Assembly: GCA_035653615.1 (NCBI GenBank)
Contig: DASRBN010000025.1
Location: forward strand, 1-64,000
Length of the DNA: 64,000 nucleotides
Direction of reading: 5' to 3'
Origin: Ktedonobacteraceae bacterium
GTDB lineage: Bacteria > Chloroflexota > Ktedonobacteria > Ktedonobacterales > Ktedonobacteraceae
Below are positions 6,984 through 30,314 of the stretch, one piece after another. The translations under genes and the position numbers were made by a program. Below the pieces are notes generated by a model, which had not been told where the DNA came from, made no database searches, and worked only from the letters and a program-made list of their open reading frames with translations. The first letter of the stretch is position 1, and the number at the start of each line of letters is the position of its first letter.

Positions 6984-7769
6984 GTGAATAACCAGGGATC
7001 ACAATACTATACAGCGAGCGAGGCTCAGGCGAAACTTGGATTATCCAAAGCGCAGTTCCACCAGAAGGTGCGGCAAGGATTGATTCCAAAGGTAATCATG
7101 CCCGGAAGGAAACAGGGAATGTATCCCAGGCGAGATATAGATGCGCTGGCCCTGTCGATGACTTCTCAGACAGAGGCGTATGTCTTCTCGCGGTCGACCC
7201 CCGCCGACCAGGTTGAGGAAATGGCTATTGATATTCGCTACTGGGGGCGTGATTTTGTAATTTCGCTGGCTGAACGCATTGCATTTCAGCAAAAGTGTTC
7301 GTTTACGTTCCATTCGTTCAAGGTACGCGACAAGGTCGTGGGCTATGTTTCCATGTTTCGTTTACCGGATAGTTTTCTCGATGCCTTGCTGACTGGCCAG
7401 AAGATTGAGCGAGACATTACCTTGCGAGAGGTATTGCCATTTGTGCGCCTGGAGCCTTTTGCTATCTTTCTTGATAGGATCGTTGTGGACTCTGGACTTT
7501 CCACTCATCTGAGGCGTCTCTATGCCGGCACGATGATCTTCCACTTTATTAGCGTACTTTCTTATCTCCTGGCAAATGATTATCAGATCACTCACCTCTA
7601 TGCTATTTCCACAACGCAGCAGGTCAGTAACCTGCTAAAGAGGCTGGGCTTTCAGCAAATGACAGGAAAATCTCTCGTTCCTGGTCGTCTGGCCTTCGAA
7701 TATACCCTTGACGATGCGGGACTGGCTCATCTTCAAGCTCTACAACAGGAATTTCGTCATCGCCTTTAA
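6984..7769 (+). CDS. Excisionase-like HTH protein with GNAT-like C-terminal domain, copy 1
   Basis: A protein of 261 residues. Residues 8-59 form a MerR/excisionase-like DNA-binding domain (YYTASEAQAKLGLSKAQF, then YPRRDIDALALSM). The rest, from about residue 70, resembles a GNAT fold: a beta-rich core with VRDKVVGYVSMFRL, an acceptor region with VVDSGLSTHLRRLYAGTMI, and the terminal LLKRLGFQQMTGKS typical of the last GNAT helix-strand. The canonical acetyl-CoA loop Q/RxxGxG/A is not clear, so catalysis is uncertain. The GTG start is set by GGAGG 6 nt upstream. A tandem paralogue follows. Function not known; DNA binding is inferred from the fold. Confidence 0.75.
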   Translation: MNNQGSQYYTASEAQAKLGLSKAQFHQKVRQGLIPKVIMPGRKQGMYPRRDIDALALSMTSQTEAYVFSRSTPADQVEEMAIDIRYWGRDFVISLAERIAFQQKCSFTFHSFKVRDKVVGYVSMFRLPDSFLDALLTGQKIERDITLREVLPFVRLEPFAIFLDRIVVDSGLSTHLRRLYAGTMIFHFISVLSYLLANDYQITHLYAISTTQQVSNLLKRLGFQQMTGKSLVPGRLAFEYTLDDAGLAHLQALQQEFRHRL

Positions 7770-7877
7770 TCGTTATCCTTCTTAAAGCATGAGTAAGCTA
7801 CTTGTTCAAGTGTAATCGCTCTCCAGTACTTTTACGTAGTATTAAGTAGTACCAGCCAGTACACAAAGTTTATAAAG

Positions 7878-7888
7878 TATGATATAGT
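7878..7888 (+). promoter_or_regulatory. Shared TATGATATAGT box upstream of the second HTH-GNAT gene
   Basis: Identical to 6953-6963. Just upstream, 7825-7862 holds three AGTAC units, which could be operator half-sites. Those units are absent before copy 1, so the conserved part is only the box. Confidence 0.4.
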
Positions 7889-7985
7889 TCCTCACATGAC
7901 AAAGGCTGAAGTACAGGCAGCTTTTCTCAAGGGGTCGTAAGCTGTAGTGCAGGGATTTCGTAAAGCTTCATTGTAGGGTAAATAG

Positions 7986-8762
7986 ATGGCGATTCATAGT
8001 AATTATTACACGGCCAGCGAAGCGCAGGCCAGGCTTGGCTTATCGAAAGCCATGTTTTTCCGCAAAGTCAGCCAGGGAGTCATTCCCAAAGTGGTGTTGC
8101 CAGGGATGAAACAGGGAGTGTATCCCAGGAGAGATATCGATGCCCTCGCGCTCTCCATGAATATGCTTTTTGAACAATACGACAGAATTATTTTTTCCCG
8201 CTCGACTCCTGCCGATCAGCTAGAAGAGATGAACATTGGTATCAGGTGTTTTGGCAGCGATTTTATCACCCCTCTGGCAGAACGTATTGCTTTCCAGCAG
8301 AAGTCTGAATTTACATTCTACTCACTCAAAGTTGATGGTGAGGTTGTCGGCTACATCTCAATGTTCCGTTTGTCCGAGAACCTTCTTGAGGATCTCCTTA
8401 CCGGTCGTAAGATTGAGCGTGAGATCTCTGTAAAAGAGATGCTACCATTTGTGCGATTAGAACCATTCAGCATCTATATCGATGTCATTGCCATCGATCC
8501 CCATCTGACTGCCCATAAACGGCATCTCTATGCCGGTCTTATCGTCTCGCGCTTCATCGACCTGCTCCTGAATCTGCTGGCGAATGGCTATCAGATTACC
8601 CGTATTTACACGGTGACGGCCACGGTGGAGGGGGATAACCTGGTGAGAAAACTGGGTTTCCGGCACTTAGACGGCAAATCGCTTGCCCCTGGCCGCAACG
8701 CGTATGAGTATGTACTTGACCAGGCAGGCATCAAAAGGTTGCGCGATTTTAGCCACCGCTGA
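7986..8762 (+). CDS. Excisionase-like HTH protein with GNAT-like C-terminal domain, copy 2
   Basis: Tandem paralogue of the preceding gene, 258 residues and alignable end to end. In the HTH block 42 of 52 residues are identical. The GNAT-like half keeps AERIAFQQKSEFTFYSLK, FVRLEPFSIYIDVIAIDP and LVRKLGFRHLDGKSLAPGR. A two-residue length difference lies around residue 60 between the domains. The ATG at 7986 has only a weak ribosome site (AGGGTAAATAG). The pair probably arose by local duplication. Whether each copy has its own DNA target cannot be told from sequence. Confidence 0.75.
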   Translation: MAIHSNYYTASEAQARLGLSKAMFFRKVSQGVIPKVVLPGMKQGVYPRRDIDALALSMNMLFEQYDRIIFSRSTPADQLEEMNIGIRCFGSDFITPLAERIAFQQKSEFTFYSLKVDGEVVGYISMFRLSENLLEDLLTGRKIEREISVKEMLPFVRLEPFSIYIDVIAIDPHLTAHKRHLYAGLIVSRFIDLLLNLLANGYQITRIYTVTATVEGDNLVRKLGFRHLDGKSLAPGRNAYEYVLDQAGIKRLRDFSHR

Positions 8763-22514: not shown

Positions 22515-24668
22515 TCATACCGCTTGCCAGATGCGCACAGTCGTATCATCGGCCCCGGAAGCAATACGCTGTCCATCGGGCGACCAGGCGATTGAATGCA
22601 CGGCACCGGTGTGGTCGCTATACGTATTCAATGTTTTCCCTGCCGGCAGAACCGGGTTCCATATCCGTACTTCCTGCCACGAACTGGAGGCGATGTGCTG
22701 CCCTTTTGGATGCCAGGCGATTGCATAGATGCCGCCTGTATGTTCAGTGTAAGTAAGTTGGCGCACTCCGGTGTTGGCATCCCATACCTGCACATTGCTT
22801 TCCGGCACATCACTGCCTGATGCAATCAACTTGCCGTCGGGAGACCATGCCACGGCTTTTACCGCTTGTTTGTGTCCATGATAGATGAAGGCATTACCCC
22901 CGCTGGTTGCATCCCATACCTGCACCGTCGTATCAACGTCCGCTGAGGCGAGACGCTGGCTATCCGGTGACCAGCTTACAGACCAGATCATGTTATGATG
23001 CCCCTTGTAGGTGAAAATGTGGGCGCCGGTCATAGCATCCCATACTTGTACTGTATTGTCGTCGCCTCCAGAGGCGATCATGCTTCCATCCGGTGACCAT
23101 GCTACTGTACGTACATTGTTAGAGTGCCCCTTGTAAACGAAGTCAATGCTGCCCGTCGTTGCCTGCCATACGCGCACGGTTGTATCTGAACTGGCGGACA
23201 CAATGGACTGCCCTCCAGGTGACCATGCCAGGCCATTCACGGAGCCTGAATGCTCGATGAACGTGTAGATATCTTTGCCGGTAGAGGAATTCCAGACGCG
23301 AGCTTTATCATCTTTTCCACCGGAAACGACGAATTGGCCTTGTCGTTGCCAGGCCACAGTATAGACCTGCTGCGTATGACCTTTATAAACGACGAACGTT
23401 GTCCCCGGTTCGGTTATGGGTGTCGGGGTCTGGCCCGGTTGAATAGCTGATGCCGCTCTATTTCTTTCTAACACAAGCCAGGTTCCTACTCCACCCCCGG
23501 CCAGGACACAACCCAGGCCGAGAATACCGACCAGAACAGCACGCCGCGAGTGACGCCTTTGGGGTTTTGGGCTGGATGTCCCTAAAGGGGGTGTGATTGG
23601 CTCGCCTGGAAATGATTCGCGTGCTGGGGCCGGTGGGGTCGTAGAAACTGTTTCAGGAAAGGCTGGAGTGAAACGAGCGGTGGGCATCTGCTCATATGCC
23701 GGTACTGAACGTGGTGTATTCGCAGGCGTAAACACCGGTGTGGGCAAGGTAGGTGCCTGCTCTTCTGGCTGTGTTGAATGAAAGGGCGCAGGCCAGAGGG
23801 CAGGTGCAGGATTGGCAGGTAACGTGAAGCCGGGCTGCGAGGAAGCAAGTGATTGTGGTGGCATGATAGCCTGTTCAAGGGCATGAGCGAATGCCGTGAC
23901 GTTGGCGAAACGGCGCTCCGGCTCCTTAGCAAGGGAGGTCATCACCACCAATTCCACATCGGATGGGATACCTGGAACCCAGGTACTCATTGGGGGTGGT
24001 GAAGTAAAGAGATGCTGGCCGGAGAGTTGTATAAACGTTCCTTCGAAAGGTGGCCTTCCACACAACCACTCGTAAACCATGATCCCCAGGCTATACTGAT
24101 CGCTTGCAGGAAGAGCCTTACCTCTCAGTTGCTCTGGCGCCATGTAGGTCAGGGTGCCTGCCATCTCTCTGGTGACAGGGTTATGAAGTGTTTGAATAAC
24201 CAGCGCGGTACCAAAATCGCTGAGCAGGACATCACCTGTAGGCCCCAGTAAGAGATTCTCCGGTTTGATATCGCGATGGATCAACTTTTGGTGGTGTACA
24301 TACTGCAATGCGGAGGCCACCTGCTTCACGTAAGACAGTACAAGATGAGCCGGTAACAGGACCCCTCTTGGATGTTGCTGGCGTAAACTACCGTTTGTGG
24401 CATATTCCATGACCAGGAAAGGAATAGTATCCTCCAGGCCAAATTCCAGGACGCGCAGGATATTTGGGTGCCTTAATCCTGCTATTGTACGCGCCTCATT
24501 CTGGAAAGCCTCCATCTCTTCCGCTACTAACCGCACGCTCAGTACCTTAATTGCGGCCTGTGTACCAAGAAACACATGCTCGCCCAGGTATACTTCAGAG
24601 AAACCGCCTTGCCCCAATAGGCGTAGCAGGCGATAGTTGCCAAGCCGCTGTCCAATACGATTGATCAT
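22515..24668 (-). CDS. Membrane serine/threonine protein kinase with seven WD40 repeats
   Basis: About 717 residues. The kinase domain (residues 9-265) has a glycine loop LLGQGGFSEVYLG, catalytic HRDIKPENLLL, DFGTAL in place of the commoner DFGxA, and GTLTYMAPEQL. A Pro-rich linker of 110 residues leads to one membrane segment (about 372-395, LVGILGLGCVLAGGGVGTWL). The extracytoplasmic C-terminus holds seven WD repeats, each with VAWSPDG- and VxVW-like blocks, enough for one closed beta-propeller sensor. ATG 24668 is chosen because AGGTGA is 5 nt before it; the in-frame GTG upstream is inside that site. PknB-like signalling is expected; ligand and substrates unknown. Confidence 0.95.
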   Translation of the reverse strand: MINRIGQRLGNYRLLRLLGQGGFSEVYLGEHVFLGTQAAIKVLSVRLVAEEMEAFQNEARTIAGLRHPNILRVLEFGLEDTIPFLVMEYATNGSLRQQHPRGVLLPAHLVLSYVKQVASALQYVHHQKLIHRDIKPENLLLGPTGDVLLSDFGTALVIQTLHNPVTREMAGTLTYMAPEQLRGKALPASDQYSLGIMVYEWLCGRPPFEGTFIQLSGQHLFTSPPPMSTWVPGIPSDVELVVMTSLAKEPERRFANVTAFAHALEQAIMPPQSLASSQPGFTLPANPAPALWPAPFHSTQPEEQAPTLPTPVFTPANTPRSVPAYEQMPTARFTPAFPETVSTTPPAPARESFPGEPITPPLGTSSPKPQRRHSRRAVLVGILGLGCVLAGGGVGTWLVLERNRAASAIQPGQTPTPITEPGTTFVVYKGHTQQVYTVAWQRQGQFVVSGGKDDKARVWNSSTGKDIYTFIEHSGSVNGLAWSPGGQSIVSASSDTTVRVWQATTGSIDFVYKGHSNNVRTVAWSPDGSMIASGGDDNTVQVWDAMTGAHIFTYKGHHNMIWSVSWSPDSQRLASADVDTTVQVWDATSGGNAFIYHGHKQAVKAVAWSPDGKLIASGSDVPESNVQVWDANTGVRQLTYTEHTGGIYAIAWHPKGQHIASSSWQEVRIWNPVLPAGKTLNTYSDHTGAVHSIAWSPDGQRIASGADDTTVRIWQAV

Positions 24669-24849
24669 AGTTATCACCTGGCCTACCTATTGTCAGTACG
24701 TGCCTGGCTATTCCTGGCACTTCTCCCCCGTGACAGGCCGTCCTCCTGCTCAAGTTTAAAGGAGTAGAAGAATCTCTTATAAAGAATTATATCACAGCTT
24801 TTTTGTAATACGAATGGATGCCTTCGCGAAAACTGCTTTTCGCCACAAG

Positions 24850-24878
24850 TTGATGCTTACCCACTTTGCTGCTATAAT
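24850..24878 (+). promoter_or_regulatory. Sigma-70 promoter of the polysaccharide cassette
   Basis: TTGATG (24850-24855), a 17-bp spacer and TATAAT (24873-24878). It lies 42 bp before the GH5-like start, in the divergent gap from the WD40 kinase. Confidence 0.75.
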
Positions 24879-24919
24879 TCTAATGGAAGAGCAGAGTAGC
24901 CATGAAAAGAGGAAATGAC

Positions 24920-26404
24920 ATGAAGGCGCTCAAGATTCCCACTCTCCTGGCCCGGTACTGGTCCATTATTCTCTTTCCCATTCTCATTTCACTTATTGTG
25001 CTTACTCTCGTTCTGACCCGACAGGTCGCTCGCCAGCCGACGCACGCAGTCTCAGCGCAGTTTATTCAACGTTCAGGCTCGCAGCTTCTCCTGGATGGCA
25101 GCGTTTTTCGCTTCTCCGGCGCCAATATTTATTGGCTTGGTTTAGACGAAAATGTGGGAGGTATCGATTACCCGACGGCATTCCGCGTCGATGATGTGCT
25201 GGCTACCGCCAGAGAGATGGGAGCTACCGTGGTGCGCTCACACACACTGGGCATCTCCGTCGGCTGTTCCCTCTGCATTGAACCGTCGCCGGGTATCTTT
25301 AACGAAATTGCTTTCCGGCATGTCGATTATGCTATTGCCGAGGCTAAGAAGTTCGGCCTGCACCTCATTATCCCACTCACCGATAATTTTCACTATTATC
25401 ATGGCGGTAAACACACGTTCACCGATTGGCGGGGTATTCGAGATGAGAATCAATTCTACACCAATCCGACCGTCATCAGCGATTTTGAAACCTATATCAA
25501 CCACATCCTGAACCGTGTGAATAGCTATACCGGTGTTGCATACAAGAATGATCCAACTATTCTCGGATGGGAGACCGGCAACGGCTTGCTTGCCCCGCGC
25601 TCGTGGGTGCAAACGATCTCCGCATACATCAAATCTATCGACAGCAACCACCTGGTCATCGACGGCAATACCGGGCAAAGTTATACCTCTTCTACCTTTG
25701 AGCAGGATCTGAATATCAGCAGCGTCGATATGTACGTGGGGCAGTACTATCCTATGTCGATTTCCGCCTTAAACACGCAGGCGGGGCTGGCACAACGCGC
25801 GAATAAAGTCTTTATCGCTGAAGAGTACGCATGGAACAATCGGGAAGGTGGTGATGCGCTTCCCAGCTTTTTAAACAATATCGAATCCAACTATGCTATC
25901 TCAGGCGATCTTTTCTGGTCGCTCTTCGGCCACAAGGATACTTCTGGTTATGAACAGCACAACGATGGCTATACCTTACACTATCCTGGTGATACCGGCG
26001 ACATGCGTATGCGCGCGCAGCTGTTGCGGGCGCACGCTTATCAGATGAGAGAAATGGCTGTCCCGCCGCCAGGTCTATTTGGCGCCCCGGTCATTACCGG
26101 CACTACTCGCGGCGGACTCGAATGGCGAGGCGTCGCGGGCGCCTATAAATATAGCGTTCAGCGCTCGACTGGAGGCCCGGATGGCCCCTGGAAGACGATT
26201 TGTTATCAATGTGCCACCGATAACAGTACCCCCTGGAGCGACCCAAAAAGACCCGCCGGAAAAGTCTGGTACAGAATCATGGCGTACAGCCTTTCGGAAA
26301 CCGCAATGAGTTACTCCCCCACTTATGAAGTGGATAGCCCTATGCCTGCAGATGATCCAGGCAGTTCGCTTTCGCATTCCCTCAAATCGGCCAGGGCACA
26401 GTGA
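24920..26404 (+). CDS. GH5-like (mannanase-type) membrane-anchored protein with altered acid/base site
   Basis: About 494 residues. A signal-anchor (residues 12-35) is followed by a TIM-barrel: FRFSGANIYWLGL at strand 1, VVRSHTL at strand 3, and NDPTILGWETGNGL where GH5_7 mannanases read ..W E x x N E P. Here the expected acid/base Glu is Gly (codon 25583-25585), while the nucleophile-like Glu is present in KVFIAEEYAW. A C-terminal domain of about 95 residues (EWRGVAGAYKYSVQRS) is FN3-like. Start 24920 has AGAGGA 7 nt upstream; ATG 24902 is possible. It heads a cluster with an Egghead-like GT2 and a GH113-like protein. It may bind or trim a beta-mannan-type glucan; loss of the acid/base makes normal hydrolysis doubtful. 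Confidence 0.82.
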   Translation: MKALKIPTLLARYWSIILFPILISLIVLTLVLTRQVARQPTHAVSAQFIQRSGSQLLLDGSVFRFSGANIYWLGLDENVGGIDYPTAFRVDDVLATAREMGATVVRSHTLGISVGCSLCIEPSPGIFNEIAFRHVDYAIAEAKKFGLHLIIPLTDNFHYYHGGKHTFTDWRGIRDENQFYTNPTVISDFETYINHILNRVNSYTGVAYKNDPTILGWETGNGLLAPRSWVQTISAYIKSIDSNHLVIDGNTGQSYTSSTFEQDLNISSVDMYVGQYYPMSISALNTQAGLAQRANKVFIAEEYAWNNREGGDALPSFLNNIESNYAISGDLFWSLFGHKDTSGYEQHNDGYTLHYPGDTGDMRMRAQLLRAHAYQMREMAVPPPGLFGAPVITGTTRGGLEWRGVAGAYKYSVQRSTGGPDGPWKTICYQCATDNSTPWSDPKRPAGKVWYRIMAYSLSETAMSYSPTYEVDSPMPADDPGSSLSHSLKSARAQ

Positions 26405-26737
26405 TCTTGTAAATGACTACCTCGCTCTCCATACTTGCACCGTATTGTTAAGGCTTCTGATGCTATGTGATTTCCATCATCATTTGCAGCATGTTTTGCA
26501 ATAGCAAGCATGCTTGCGGACCGGAAACATAGCAGTACTTTTTGGCACAGTGTGACCTCGCCCTACAAGAGGCGTTATACTGCTTGAAGGGGTTTACTAG
26601 TGCGTCATGTTTTACCGCGAGCTTTATTATGCTCATCAATATATCGCAAGCTTCAATATCGATGAGTTCGAATATATCTTTATTGGCTATTGCCCAACTG
26701 CAGGACGAGTACCAGGGGGGAACTAGAAAGGTCTTCT
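26405..26737. other. Gap within the polysaccharide cassette
   Basis: No gene seen in these 333 bp. A perfect 14-bp palindrome GCAAGCATGCTTGC lies at 26504-26517. No clear terminator or promoter, so read-through from the GH5-like gene to the GT2 gene is possible. Confidence 0.4.
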
Positions 26738-28705
26738 ATGCAGGTTGATGGTTCTGAGGAACGAGCAGCACGCCTGGCCCAACTGCGACAACAGCGACTC
26801 GCACAACCGCAGCTACCTACCCGTCCTCCCAGCGTCTCTTATACGGCTCATTACGCTCAGACAATGCAAAGAGACCGGGCGAATGGTTCTAGCATGATTG
26901 ACAGCGGTTCATTCCAGGCCAGGTCACGACCATCTCCGGTTCACACCGGCCCTCAGAGGCTCTACCGGGTATGCATCGCCCTGCTCTACCGTATCTGGCT
27001 CCTGGGTGCAACGATAGGGCTGACATATCTCTTGCTCCAGTTACAGTCCGTGCTGGATCGTATTCACGCGCAGCCTTCTATCTGGCGCGTGGGTGTGCGC
27101 TGGTTGGAACTGACGTGGCTTGCGCCGGTGCCGCTGGCGATCTTTCTCTGGCTGGGCTGGTTCATATTTGCGGAAGCAGTGCGCGCCCATCCTGAGCCAG
27201 TGGCTGTTCCCAGCGTTTTCCAGAGATCGGGCCTGTTTGCGTTTGCTCCTACCAGGAGACCGGTCCGGCTCATCTTCCGCTTTGTCACGCGTGGAGATAA
27301 CATCGATGTCCTTCGAGATAGTGTAATAGCCGTTCACAATGCTTTCGCGCGCTATCCGCACCCTGTTGGCCCATATTGTATAGAGATTATCAGCGAATGT
27401 GCCATCAATCTGAAAATGGGGCGCGATCCTCATACGCGCATCTACGTTGTGCCACCTGGTTATGTCACGCCCAATCGCTCGCGTTTTAAGGCGCGCGCCC
27501 TGACATACTTACAGCACGAAAGCCAGAAACATAGCCCCACGCAGGCAGAAGACTGGTATATCTATCTTGACGAAGAAAGCCTGGTCGATGAACATATGCT
27601 GGCCGGCCTCTATCGCTTCGTCTCGCGCGCCATTGAATTCGAGGCGCGCAAGCAAGAGGATAGGCACAAAGACCACATCCAGGGTTTGATCGGGCAGGGC
27701 GCTATACTCTATCAGGGCGGGAACTGGTTCTTTCGGGGGGCTGATGCCCTGCGCACCGCCGATGACCTCGGCAGATTTCGCCTGCAATATGCCCTGGGGA
27801 CGCCTATGTTTGGCATCCATGGCTCCTTTATCGTCGTGCGTGGACTGGATGATAAGCAGCTTTCGTTCGATGTTGGTAAAGCAAATTCTATAACAGAGGA
27901 TGCCGCCTGGGCCTTGCGAGCCTGGGCGCAGGGGTATCGCTTTGCCTGGGTAGACGGTTATCTGCACGAACAGCCCCCACAGCGCGTCAAAGATTTCGTG
28001 CGGCAGCGCAGCCGCTGGCTCTCAGGCATTCGAGCCGTGCTGCATGATAAACAGGTTCCTTTTATTTACAGAATGTGCCTGGGCATCTTTACCATTCTCT
28101 GGCAGCTTGCATTCCTGCCACTGCTAGTAGCGCTGCTGGCTTTATTCGTACATGCAAGTCCGTTTCGCTGGATGCGCATCCCGGCAGATTTCGCCTGGGC
28201 CACCTTTACCCTGGCATACTTACAAGGAATAGATGTGCAGGCGAAATGCCCGCACCCGTTCTTGAAAAAAGGGCGCGTTGAGTCGCTCTTGAAGCGAGTT
28301 GTCTCATGGCTACTGGTGTTGTGCAGCTTCTGGTTCGCATTATTGGAAGCGCTGGGTGTGCTGTATAGCTTGCGACCAAAGCAGGGCTTTTTCGTCATCT
28401 CCAAGCCTAGCCTGGCTGCAGAAAAAAATGGACACAAGCCAGCTCTCCCTGCTCCGGCGCCAGCAGGGTCTTTCATGCCAGGGCTGGCGGCCCCCTGGCA
28501 ACAGCAGTTGTCACCAACGCTTTCAGGAGAAAGTGATGCCATAGGTAGCTCTCCTATGGCGCAATATCGATTACAGGCGCAGAAAGTTCCCGGTCAATCG
28601 TCCCTGGGACGGCAAGACCTGCGGGCCAGAGAAGAGAAGAACAATAATGCCATACCCATGCCGTTCGAGGAAATCTGGAGCGGCGGTGGAGGACGAGGGC
28701 AGTGA
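26738..28705 (+). CDS. Membrane GT2 glycosyltransferase, Egghead-like (beta-mannosyltransferase type)
   Basis: A protein of 655 residues. Two membrane segments (about 80-105 and 125-150), a cytoplasmic GT2 domain and three or four C-terminal segments. The domain shows YIYLDEESLVDEH at the DxD position, GQGAILYQGGNWFFRGADAL, the DDLGR block, GIHGSFIVVR, the ITEDAAW acid site, WVDGYLHEQPPQ and the QRSRW acceptor motif. This order matches animal Egghead beta-1,4-mannosyltransferases and their bacterial relatives rather than cellulose synthases. N- and C-terminal tails are long and Gln/Pro rich. AAAGG precedes ATG 26738 by 8 nt. Its stop overlaps the next start by 4 bp. Probably a polysaccharide synthase; the sugar is inferred from the family. 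Confidence 0.85.
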   Translation: MQVDGSEERAARLAQLRQQRLAQPQLPTRPPSVSYTAHYAQTMQRDRANGSSMIDSGSFQARSRPSPVHTGPQRLYRVCIALLYRIWLLGATIGLTYLLLQLQSVLDRIHAQPSIWRVGVRWLELTWLAPVPLAIFLWLGWFIFAEAVRAHPEPVAVPSVFQRSGLFAFAPTRRPVRLIFRFVTRGDNIDVLRDSVIAVHNAFARYPHPVGPYCIEIISECAINLKMGRDPHTRIYVVPPGYVTPNRSRFKARALTYLQHESQKHSPTQAEDWYIYLDEESLVDEHMLAGLYRFVSRAIEFEARKQEDRHKDHIQGLIGQGAILYQGGNWFFRGADALRTADDLGRFRLQYALGTPMFGIHGSFIVVRGLDDKQLSFDVGKANSITEDAAWALRAWAQGYRFAWVDGYLHEQPPQRVKDFVRQRSRWLSGIRAVLHDKQVPFIYRMCLGIFTILWQLAFLPLLVALLALFVHASPFRWMRIPADFAWATFTLAYLQGIDVQAKCPHPFLKKGRVESLLKRVVSWLLVLCSFWFALLEALGVLYSLRPKQGFFVISKPSLAAEKNGHKPALPAPAPAGSFMPGLAAPWQQQLSPTLSGESDAIGSSPMAQYRLQAQKVPGQSSLGRQDLRAREEKNNNAIPMPFEEIWSGGGGRGQ

Positions 28706-29862
28706 AACGCTTTGCCTCCTATCGTGTCTTCATCGTCTCGTTTGTCTTGATGATCATAGGGGTACTCTTTCAGAGTCTCCTCCTAAGCGGGCATATACCT
28801 TTCCTGCATCTCTCGCTGCGCTCTCATACTACGGCGGCAACCATTCAACGGCAGATACTGAATGTGAGAGATCAAGGGAGCACCTTACAAGAGCGCTTCC
28901 ATAGACCCACATTCGAGACTGGCATCGTCTTTCCGCAATGGGGCACAACTGCCTATTCTGACAGCGACGCCAACTGGCGCATTGGTTTGAGTGATATACA
29001 AAAGCAGACGGCAGCTCAGTGGATCGAGATACCCGTTAACCTCTATCAAGCCTCGGTGTACTCCACGCAAGTTACTACGGCCAATTTCACGCCTACTCCG
29101 CAGGCTTTTGCGGCGGGTATACGTAGCGCCCATGCCATGCACTATCATGTATTTGTGGTACCGTTTGTATCGGCTAACGGTATCCTGACCTGGTCAGGGT
29201 CTATCCAGTTTGCCTCTCAACAAGAGACCCAGGCCTGGTTTGATAGCTATTGGCAGGCATATGAACCATTTGTACAGGCAGCTGCCCAGGCTCAGGCAGA
29301 GCAACTGGCCATCGGCACAGAGTTTGATAAACTTCAGATGGTTGCGCCATTCTTCTGGAACCAGCTAATTGATCGTATTCGTTCGATTTTTCATGGGAAA
29401 TTGACCTATGATATTAACTGGTCATCATTGTACAGTTCGCTTCCAACGTGGCTAAACAATCCCCATCTATCGGCTATCGGCGTTTCGGTCTATGTTCCTC
29501 TGGCGGATACACCGCAGCGGCTTAACCCTGCTACACTGCCTCGTCTCTGGAAAGAAAATATCAGCGTAGTGCTAGATTCACTTGCTAAGCAGACCGGCAA
29601 ACCGGTGTTGGTGTCAGAAATAGGGTATCGCGACAGCGCTTATGCCCTTTACCGTCCATGGCAGCGTGATGCTCAGGCCCAGGCAGAGCCGCCCGACCCC
29701 AATATGCAGGCCGCGGCCTACAACGCTGCCCTCGTAAACGTCCTGGCCGATTCTCATATCACCGGCATCTTTTTCTGGGCCTGGTCTGTCCCACTGTTTG
29801 AGCCAAACTGGAAGCCGGCGGCTAAGGTTCTTCACAAGTGGTACACGTCTCCGCAAGCTTGA
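28702..29862 (+). CDS. GH113-like glycoside hydrolase, membrane-anchored
   Basis: A protein of 386 residues. An N-terminal signal anchor (about residues 8-30) precedes a TIM-barrel resembling GH113 beta-1,4-mannanases and related GTA-type hydrolases. Candidate catalytic residues are the Glu in LAIGTEFDKLQ (acid/base) and the Glu in VLVSEIGYRDSA (nucleophile); FFWAWSVPLF near the end matches the conserved Trp-rich last strand. The GTG start overlaps the GT2 stop (GTGA), with GGAGG about 9 nt upstream, so it is coupled to the synthase. Synthase-dependent exopolysaccharide systems commonly pair a GT2 with such a hydrolase for trimming or release. Confidence 0.82.
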   Translation: MKRFASYRVFIVSFVLMIIGVLFQSLLLSGHIPFLHLSLRSHTTAATIQRQILNVRDQGSTLQERFHRPTFETGIVFPQWGTTAYSDSDANWRIGLSDIQKQTAAQWIEIPVNLYQASVYSTQVTTANFTPTPQAFAAGIRSAHAMHYHVFVVPFVSANGILTWSGSIQFASQQETQAWFDSYWQAYEPFVQAAAQAQAEQLAIGTEFDKLQMVAPFFWNQLIDRIRSIFHGKLTYDINWSSLYSSLPTWLNNPHLSAIGVSVYVPLADTPQRLNPATLPRLWKENISVVLDSLAKQTGKPVLVSEIGYRDSAYALYRPWQRDAQAQAEPPDPNMQAAAYNAALVNVLADSHITGIFFWAWSVPLFEPNWKPAAKVLHKWYTSPQA

Positions 29863-30014: not shown

Positions 30015-30314
30015 ATGTCTGTCAAAATTCGTTTAAAACGGGTGGGCAAGACCAAAGCCCCCAGCTACCGAGTGGTCGTCGCAGATGCGCGTTCGCCGCG
30101 TGATGGCCGCATTATCGAAAATATTGGTTGGTACAATCCCCTTGTCGAGCCGTCCGCGATTCATATCGACGAGGAGAAGGCCCTGGGCTGGCTCAAAAAT
30201 GGTGCCCAGCCGACCGATTCGGTCACCAGCCTGCTCAAACGCGCTGGCATACTGGATCGCTTCGAGCAGATGAAAAAAGCGACTGCCGCTCCAGCTTCTA
30301 CCGAGTCCGAATAA
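30015..30314 (+). CDS. rpsP: 30S ribosomal protein S16
   Basis: A protein of 99 residues with the complete S16 pattern: [20 protein letters not shown] at the N-terminus, [21 protein letters not shown], and the [12 protein letters not shown] block near the end. It assembles into the small ribosomal subunit. It is the first gene of rpsP-khpA-rimM with a consensus promoter and a leader of about 105 nt that has AGGTGAG 12 nt from the ATG. The usual later members trmD and rplS do not follow in this window. Confidence 0.98.

Follow-up and report, generated by a model that had tools for sequence, protein, structure and literature searches.

The animal Egghead enzyme adds one mannose to glucosylceramide, and we are aware of no demonstration of an Egghead-type beta-mannan synthase in bacteria. 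We likewise know of no GH113 protein encoded beside a GT2 gene that has been assigned a substrate to date. The gene pair itself was noted earlier: Bacteroidetes (clade 5) and Clostridia have loci in which GH113 lies beside a mannosyltransferase-related GT2, and the clade 5 catalytic residues are conserved (PMC9032380, PMC7710045). With the GT2-associated clade 5 GH113 enzymes, no activity was seen on any of the mannans tried (PMC9032380). In the cellulose operon of Komagataeibacter, the membrane GT2 synthase is flanked by hydrolases from two families, CMCax (GH8) and BglAx (GH3) (PMC6559022).

Here we analysed a locus of a soil bacterium of the class Ktedonobacteria (Chloroflexota), which has a genome of 6.6 Mb and belongs to the same family as Ktedonosporobacter rubrisoli. 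Within the stretch of 64,000 nucleotides that was studied (the window), an Egghead-like GT2 gene lies between a GH5-type gene and a GH113 gene. A preliminary description of the window knew of no such layout; a claim that it has no precedent is not supported, given the Komagataeibacter operon (PMC6559022) and the GH113 genes found beside GT2 genes (PMC9032380, PMC7710045). The locus nevertheless differs from both. The hydrolases of Komagataeibacter belong to glucan rather than mannan-type families, are both active and are accompanied by further Bcs subunits; the Bacteroidetes and Clostridia loci are described without a GH5-type partner, and our locus further differs from them in its Egghead-like GT2 and its host, a member of the Ktedonobacteria; the polysaccharide is putative in both. 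Three features are new here: Egghead-like GT2s are constant partners of GH113 in Ktedonobacteria, a GH5-type protein joins them as a third partner, and this third partner has apparently lost catalysis.

Results

The ORF check located three same-strand genes between positions 24850 and 29862 in the order GH5-type, GT2 and GH113, in agreement with the preliminary description, and the GT2 and GH113 genes overlap by 4 bp (GTGA, 28702 to 28705). The set is flanked by a divergent kinase-WD40 gene (22515 to 24677) on the GH5 side and by rpsP (at 30015, recognised by eye) on the GH113 side. Using a consensus scan, which alone is no proof of function, a sigma-70-like promoter with an extended -10 (TG) element, TTGATG-17-TATAAT, was found at 24850 to 24878 on the forward strand (10/12), and a weaker promoter-like match (9/12) on the same strand at 26552 to 26581, in the gap before the GT2 gene. 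This gap measures 333 bp from the GH5 stop codon to the GT2 ATG at 26738, or 285 bp if the TTG at 26690 is the start. Of the earlier proposal that one strong promoter serves the whole set, the site before the GH5-type gene could be retained, whereas a single transcript for all three genes is not supported because of the 333-bp gap and the promoter-like match inside it. No exporter, c-di-GMP module or further polysaccharide gene was found near the three-gene set in the window, and no uptake genes adjoin it there; a mannan-utilisation locus was considered and dropped, since uptake genes are missing beside the window copy. Elsewhere in the window (6984 to 8762) lie two tandem paralogous ORFs that, by eye, begin like an excisionase/MerR protein and continue like an acetyltransferase.

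The GT2 gene (26738 to 28705, forward strand) encodes 655 aa from the ATG, which is preceded by AGAAAGG, or 671 aa from the TTG. The product matched Pfam Glyco_trans_2_3 (PF13632; E=1.5e-22, 80.9 bits, cut-off 27), and its GT-A domain, with the motifs TRGD, LDEES, TED and QRSRW, is preceded by about two predicted membrane stretches and followed by about three, judged by hydropathy; TRG, LDEES, TED and QRxRW are kept in all four aligned relatives. The sequence identifies a predicted integral-membrane enzyme with the TED and QxxRW motifs of processive GT2 enzymes. An NCBIfam search returned a weak CelA match only for the GT2; a PHROGs search gave no match. The AF2 model was poor (mean pLDDT 52), so its fold matches, in which the GT-A core resembles the mannosyltransferase 6yv7, hyaluronan synthase and BcsA and the best match is an archaeal mannosyltransferase, are of low confidence and back the GT-A assignment only. 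The GT2 is 32% identical over 337 aa to a Drosophila Egghead sequence, a match that is a lead and not a test because the sequence used for Egghead is not a database copy; no other GT2 of this genome matched it significantly. Drosophila Egghead and the nematode beta-1,4-mannosyltransferase BRE-3 are likewise GT2 proteins with N- and C-terminal membrane stretches and common motifs; unlike the window GT2, they are animal enzymes and are not known to have linked hydrolase genes. The motifs fit the Egghead group, and the Egghead label is used here as a lead. A literature search for bacterial Egghead homologues returned nothing to the point.

The GH113 gene (28702 to 29862, forward strand, GTG start) encodes 386 aa that matched PF22612 with 97.2 bits (cut-off 27) and carry an N-terminal membrane anchor at residues 9 to 27. 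The AF2 model forms a barrel with the acid/base Glu207 after strand 4 and the nucleophile Glu306 on strand 7, which is the clan GH-A pattern, and a Foldseek search with this predicted fold returned GH113 mannanase chains for all 15 of the top 15 PDB matches. In the PDB profile match, the Glu306 column aligned with the Glu of 5ylh that is mutated to Ala in 5yli, and the window protein deviates at none of 29 columns otherwise invariant among its relatives. The GH113 endo-beta-1,4-mannanases AaManA (3civ, 4cd6) and 5ylh have the same barrel fold and Glu/Glu catalytic pair, whereas the window protein is about 18-20% identical to them, anchored in the membrane and coupled to a GT2. Judged by sequence, it is predicted to be a membrane-anchored protein with an intact clan GH-A catalytic pair.

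The GH5-type gene (24902 to 26404, forward strand) encodes a 500-aa protein that matched the GH5 endo-mannanases 8gf3 (E=8e-34) and 1rh9 (E=2e-31) in a phmmer search of the PDB and has an N-terminal membrane anchor at residues 21 to 39 by hydropathy. In an alignment with 13 homologues, the nucleophile Glu308 on strand 7 and the fold motifs are kept; the catalytic acid/base position, after Asn on strand 4, is Gly228 (codon GGC) where all 13 homologues have Glu, and the active-site His position on strand 6 is Gln281 (CAG) where all 13 have His. With both the acid/base Glu and the active-site His lost, the protein is probably not a working mannanase, and we annotate it as a predicted pseudoenzyme. 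A sequencing error behind the Glu228-to-Gly change was considered and rejected, because GGC is at least two changes away from any Glu codon and the His at 281 is lost as well. The earlier family calls were upheld for the GH5 mannanase-type protein (8gf3, 1rh9), GH113 (PF22612) and GT2 (PF13632), with the Egghead grouping of the last as a lead; the assignment of two mannanases to the locus did not hold, given the residues missing from the GH5 copy.

The recurrence of this gene arrangement was examined in 47 genomes of the class, which contain 21 GH113 loci. The GT2 type of the window is present in four of the 47 genomes (the window genome, K. rubrisoli, the Ktedonobacterales MAG bin_006 and a MAG that is labelled Proteobacteria but falls in the same order), with GH113 directly downstream in all four. 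A public MAG contig (L069) titled 'Proteobacteria bacterium' (Centralia_MAG_377) groups with the order of the window's genome, and its label looks wrong. A second Egghead-like GT2 type shares similar motifs and 24-27% identity with the first; five of the 47 genomes have it, again with GH113 directly downstream in each (5/5). In three further loci, GH113 is followed directly by a third GT2 type, which in a fourth comes one gene later. Altogether, a GT2 adjoins GH113 in 12 of the 21 loci, far more than expected by chance; nine genera are represented, and the two genes often overlap by 4 bp or have almost no gap between them. Assuming 12 GT2 genes among 5,800 genes per genome, about 0.4% is expected per locus, giving p ~1e-23 for 12/21, a value to be read with related genomes not being independent. 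Outside the class, no GT2 was found near GH113 at 16 sampled loci of the phylum (mostly ~14 kb read), and a profile search across the phylum (400 genomes) added no close relatives of the GT2. A search of genome contigs gave no matches with the single GT2 sequence and the same three relatives only with the GT2 alignment; in plasmids, the GT2 had no matches and GH113 two weak ones.

Several GH113 loci of the class have features of their own. In six genomes of one genus, a GH113 relative lies in conserved synteny beside a topoisomerase-like gene, with no GT2 neighbour. In two others (G024 and G026), the second GT2 type is split into two frames, and the GH113 of G024 contains stop codons; these are apparent pseudogenes within one genus. 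At another locus (L063:5656-9012), a 1118-aa protein with a GT2 domain and a weak PMT_2-like (dolichyl-phosphate-mannose mannosyltransferase) membrane domain is encoded directly downstream of GH113.

The survey for the complete three-gene set that the preliminary description had proposed did find co-occurrence, and among the 47 class genomes all three genes lie within 8 kb elsewhere only in K. rubrisoli. The GH5 gene is beside GH113 or within 5 kb of it in three of the five genomes with close homologues of both, including one (G021) in which it is the divergent neighbour of GH113. These results indicated that the GT2-GH113 pair is well supported and that the three-gene set is real but rare. 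In K. rubrisoli, GH113 and the GH5 relative beyond it are 4.3 kb apart, with three sugar ABC-transporter genes on the opposite strand between them; the GH5 protein keeps the Glu acid/base, the His and the nucleophile. Reciprocally, the GT2-coupled GH113 of this species (L013:9462-10601) carries Ala (codon GCT) in place of the nucleophile Glu and also departs at five positions that are invariant in the other proteins, including two Trp. In the only two genomes found with a close three-gene set, the residue losses thus affect different partners, GH5 in the window and GH113 in K. rubrisoli, and the two proteins appear to have swapped roles, with GH5 apparently intact and GH113 apparently dead in K. 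rubrisoli.

Discussion

We tentatively interpret the locus, with limited confidence, as a minimal synthase-dependent module for a surface glycan, in which one of the two clan GH-A partners is catalytic and the other is not. In such a module, the GT2 would use GDP-mannose on the cytoplasmic side and build a beta-mannosyl chain that emerges at the outer face; the anchored GH113 would trim, release or re-ligate the nascent chain, and the GH5-type protein may bind or guide it without cutting. In favour of this reading are the recurrent GT2-GH113 coupling, the proximity of GH5 to GH113 in three of five genomes, the intact GH113 active site of the window and the residue losses on opposite partners in the two genomes. 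A GDP-mannose pyrophosphorylase is encoded in the genome, and several Ktedonobacteria are reported to contain mannose as a whole-cell sugar (PMC12453558), which fits a mannosyl product and proves nothing. Beta-mannan is a product that we infer, and it can be put no more firmly because the GT2-linked GH113 enzymes tested so far were inactive on mannans. Several observations speak against the module: no exporter, c-di-GMP module or further polysaccharide gene lies nearby, the GT2 has only about five membrane stretches and might add single sugars, the GT2-linked clade 5 enzymes cut none of the mannans tried, no GT2 was found near GH113 at the loci sampled outside the class, and six genomes of one genus have GH113 without a GT2 neighbour.

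The GT2 could instead act as animal Egghead does and transfer one beta-mannose onto a glycolipid or lipid-linked sugar at the cytoplasmic face, with GH113 as a transglycosidase or trimmer of that surface glycolipid and no polymer formed. We regard this as somewhat unlikely. With only about five membrane stretches in the GT2, addition of a single sugar is possible, and the top sequence lead is the non-processive mannosyltransferase Egghead; the nearest fold match, from the weak model, is an archaeal mannosyltransferase, no exporter lies near the locus, and unidentified glycolipids occur in Ktedonobacteria (PMC12453558). Set against these points, endo-acting partners of clan GH-A would be unexpected if one sugar were added, QxxRW is a motif typically found in processive enzymes, and one locus has two hydrolase-type partners.

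A second alternative keeps the synthase-hydrolase module and changes the sugar, for example to ManNAc, glucose or a mixed chain, with the GH113 specificity shifted. This proposal is strengthened by the clade 5 GH113 enzymes near GT2 genes, which have intact catalytic residues and cut none of the mannans tested (PMC9032380), and a UDP-GlcNAc 2-epimerase at a Clostridial GT2/GH113 locus (PMC7710045) and the pairing of GH113 with three different GT2 types in the class point the same way. It is rather doubtful all the same, since both partners, GH5 and GH113, are similar to enzymes that act on mannan, the genome encodes GDP-mannose pyrophosphorylase and the Egghead lead indicates mannose. That the genes are chance neighbours, with an unrelated GT2 beside GH5 and GH113 proteins that serve to take up and digest plant mannan, is very improbable: the sugar ABC-transporter set of K. 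rubrisoli would suit it, but those genes are on the opposite strand, no uptake genes adjoin the window set, the window GH5 has lost catalytic residues, and the GT2-GH113 adjacency recurs in nine genera, where the genes often overlap by 4 bp or almost touch.

Within the surface-glycan module that we favour, a stronger version would combine a bacterial Egghead-type beta-mannan synthase, GH5 and GH113 proteins that exchange the catalytic role between species and a pseudoenzyme in the synthase complex; this we consider unlikely. The reciprocal residue loss is the most interesting feature of the locus and was absent from the first reading. It was recognised post hoc in two genomes, and decay could also account for it. 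If the reciprocal loss is selected, it would mean that a mannanase fold has become a binding component of a synthase. K. rubrisoli is a named and completely sequenced species with the whole set, so the substrate question could be addressed there by deletion.
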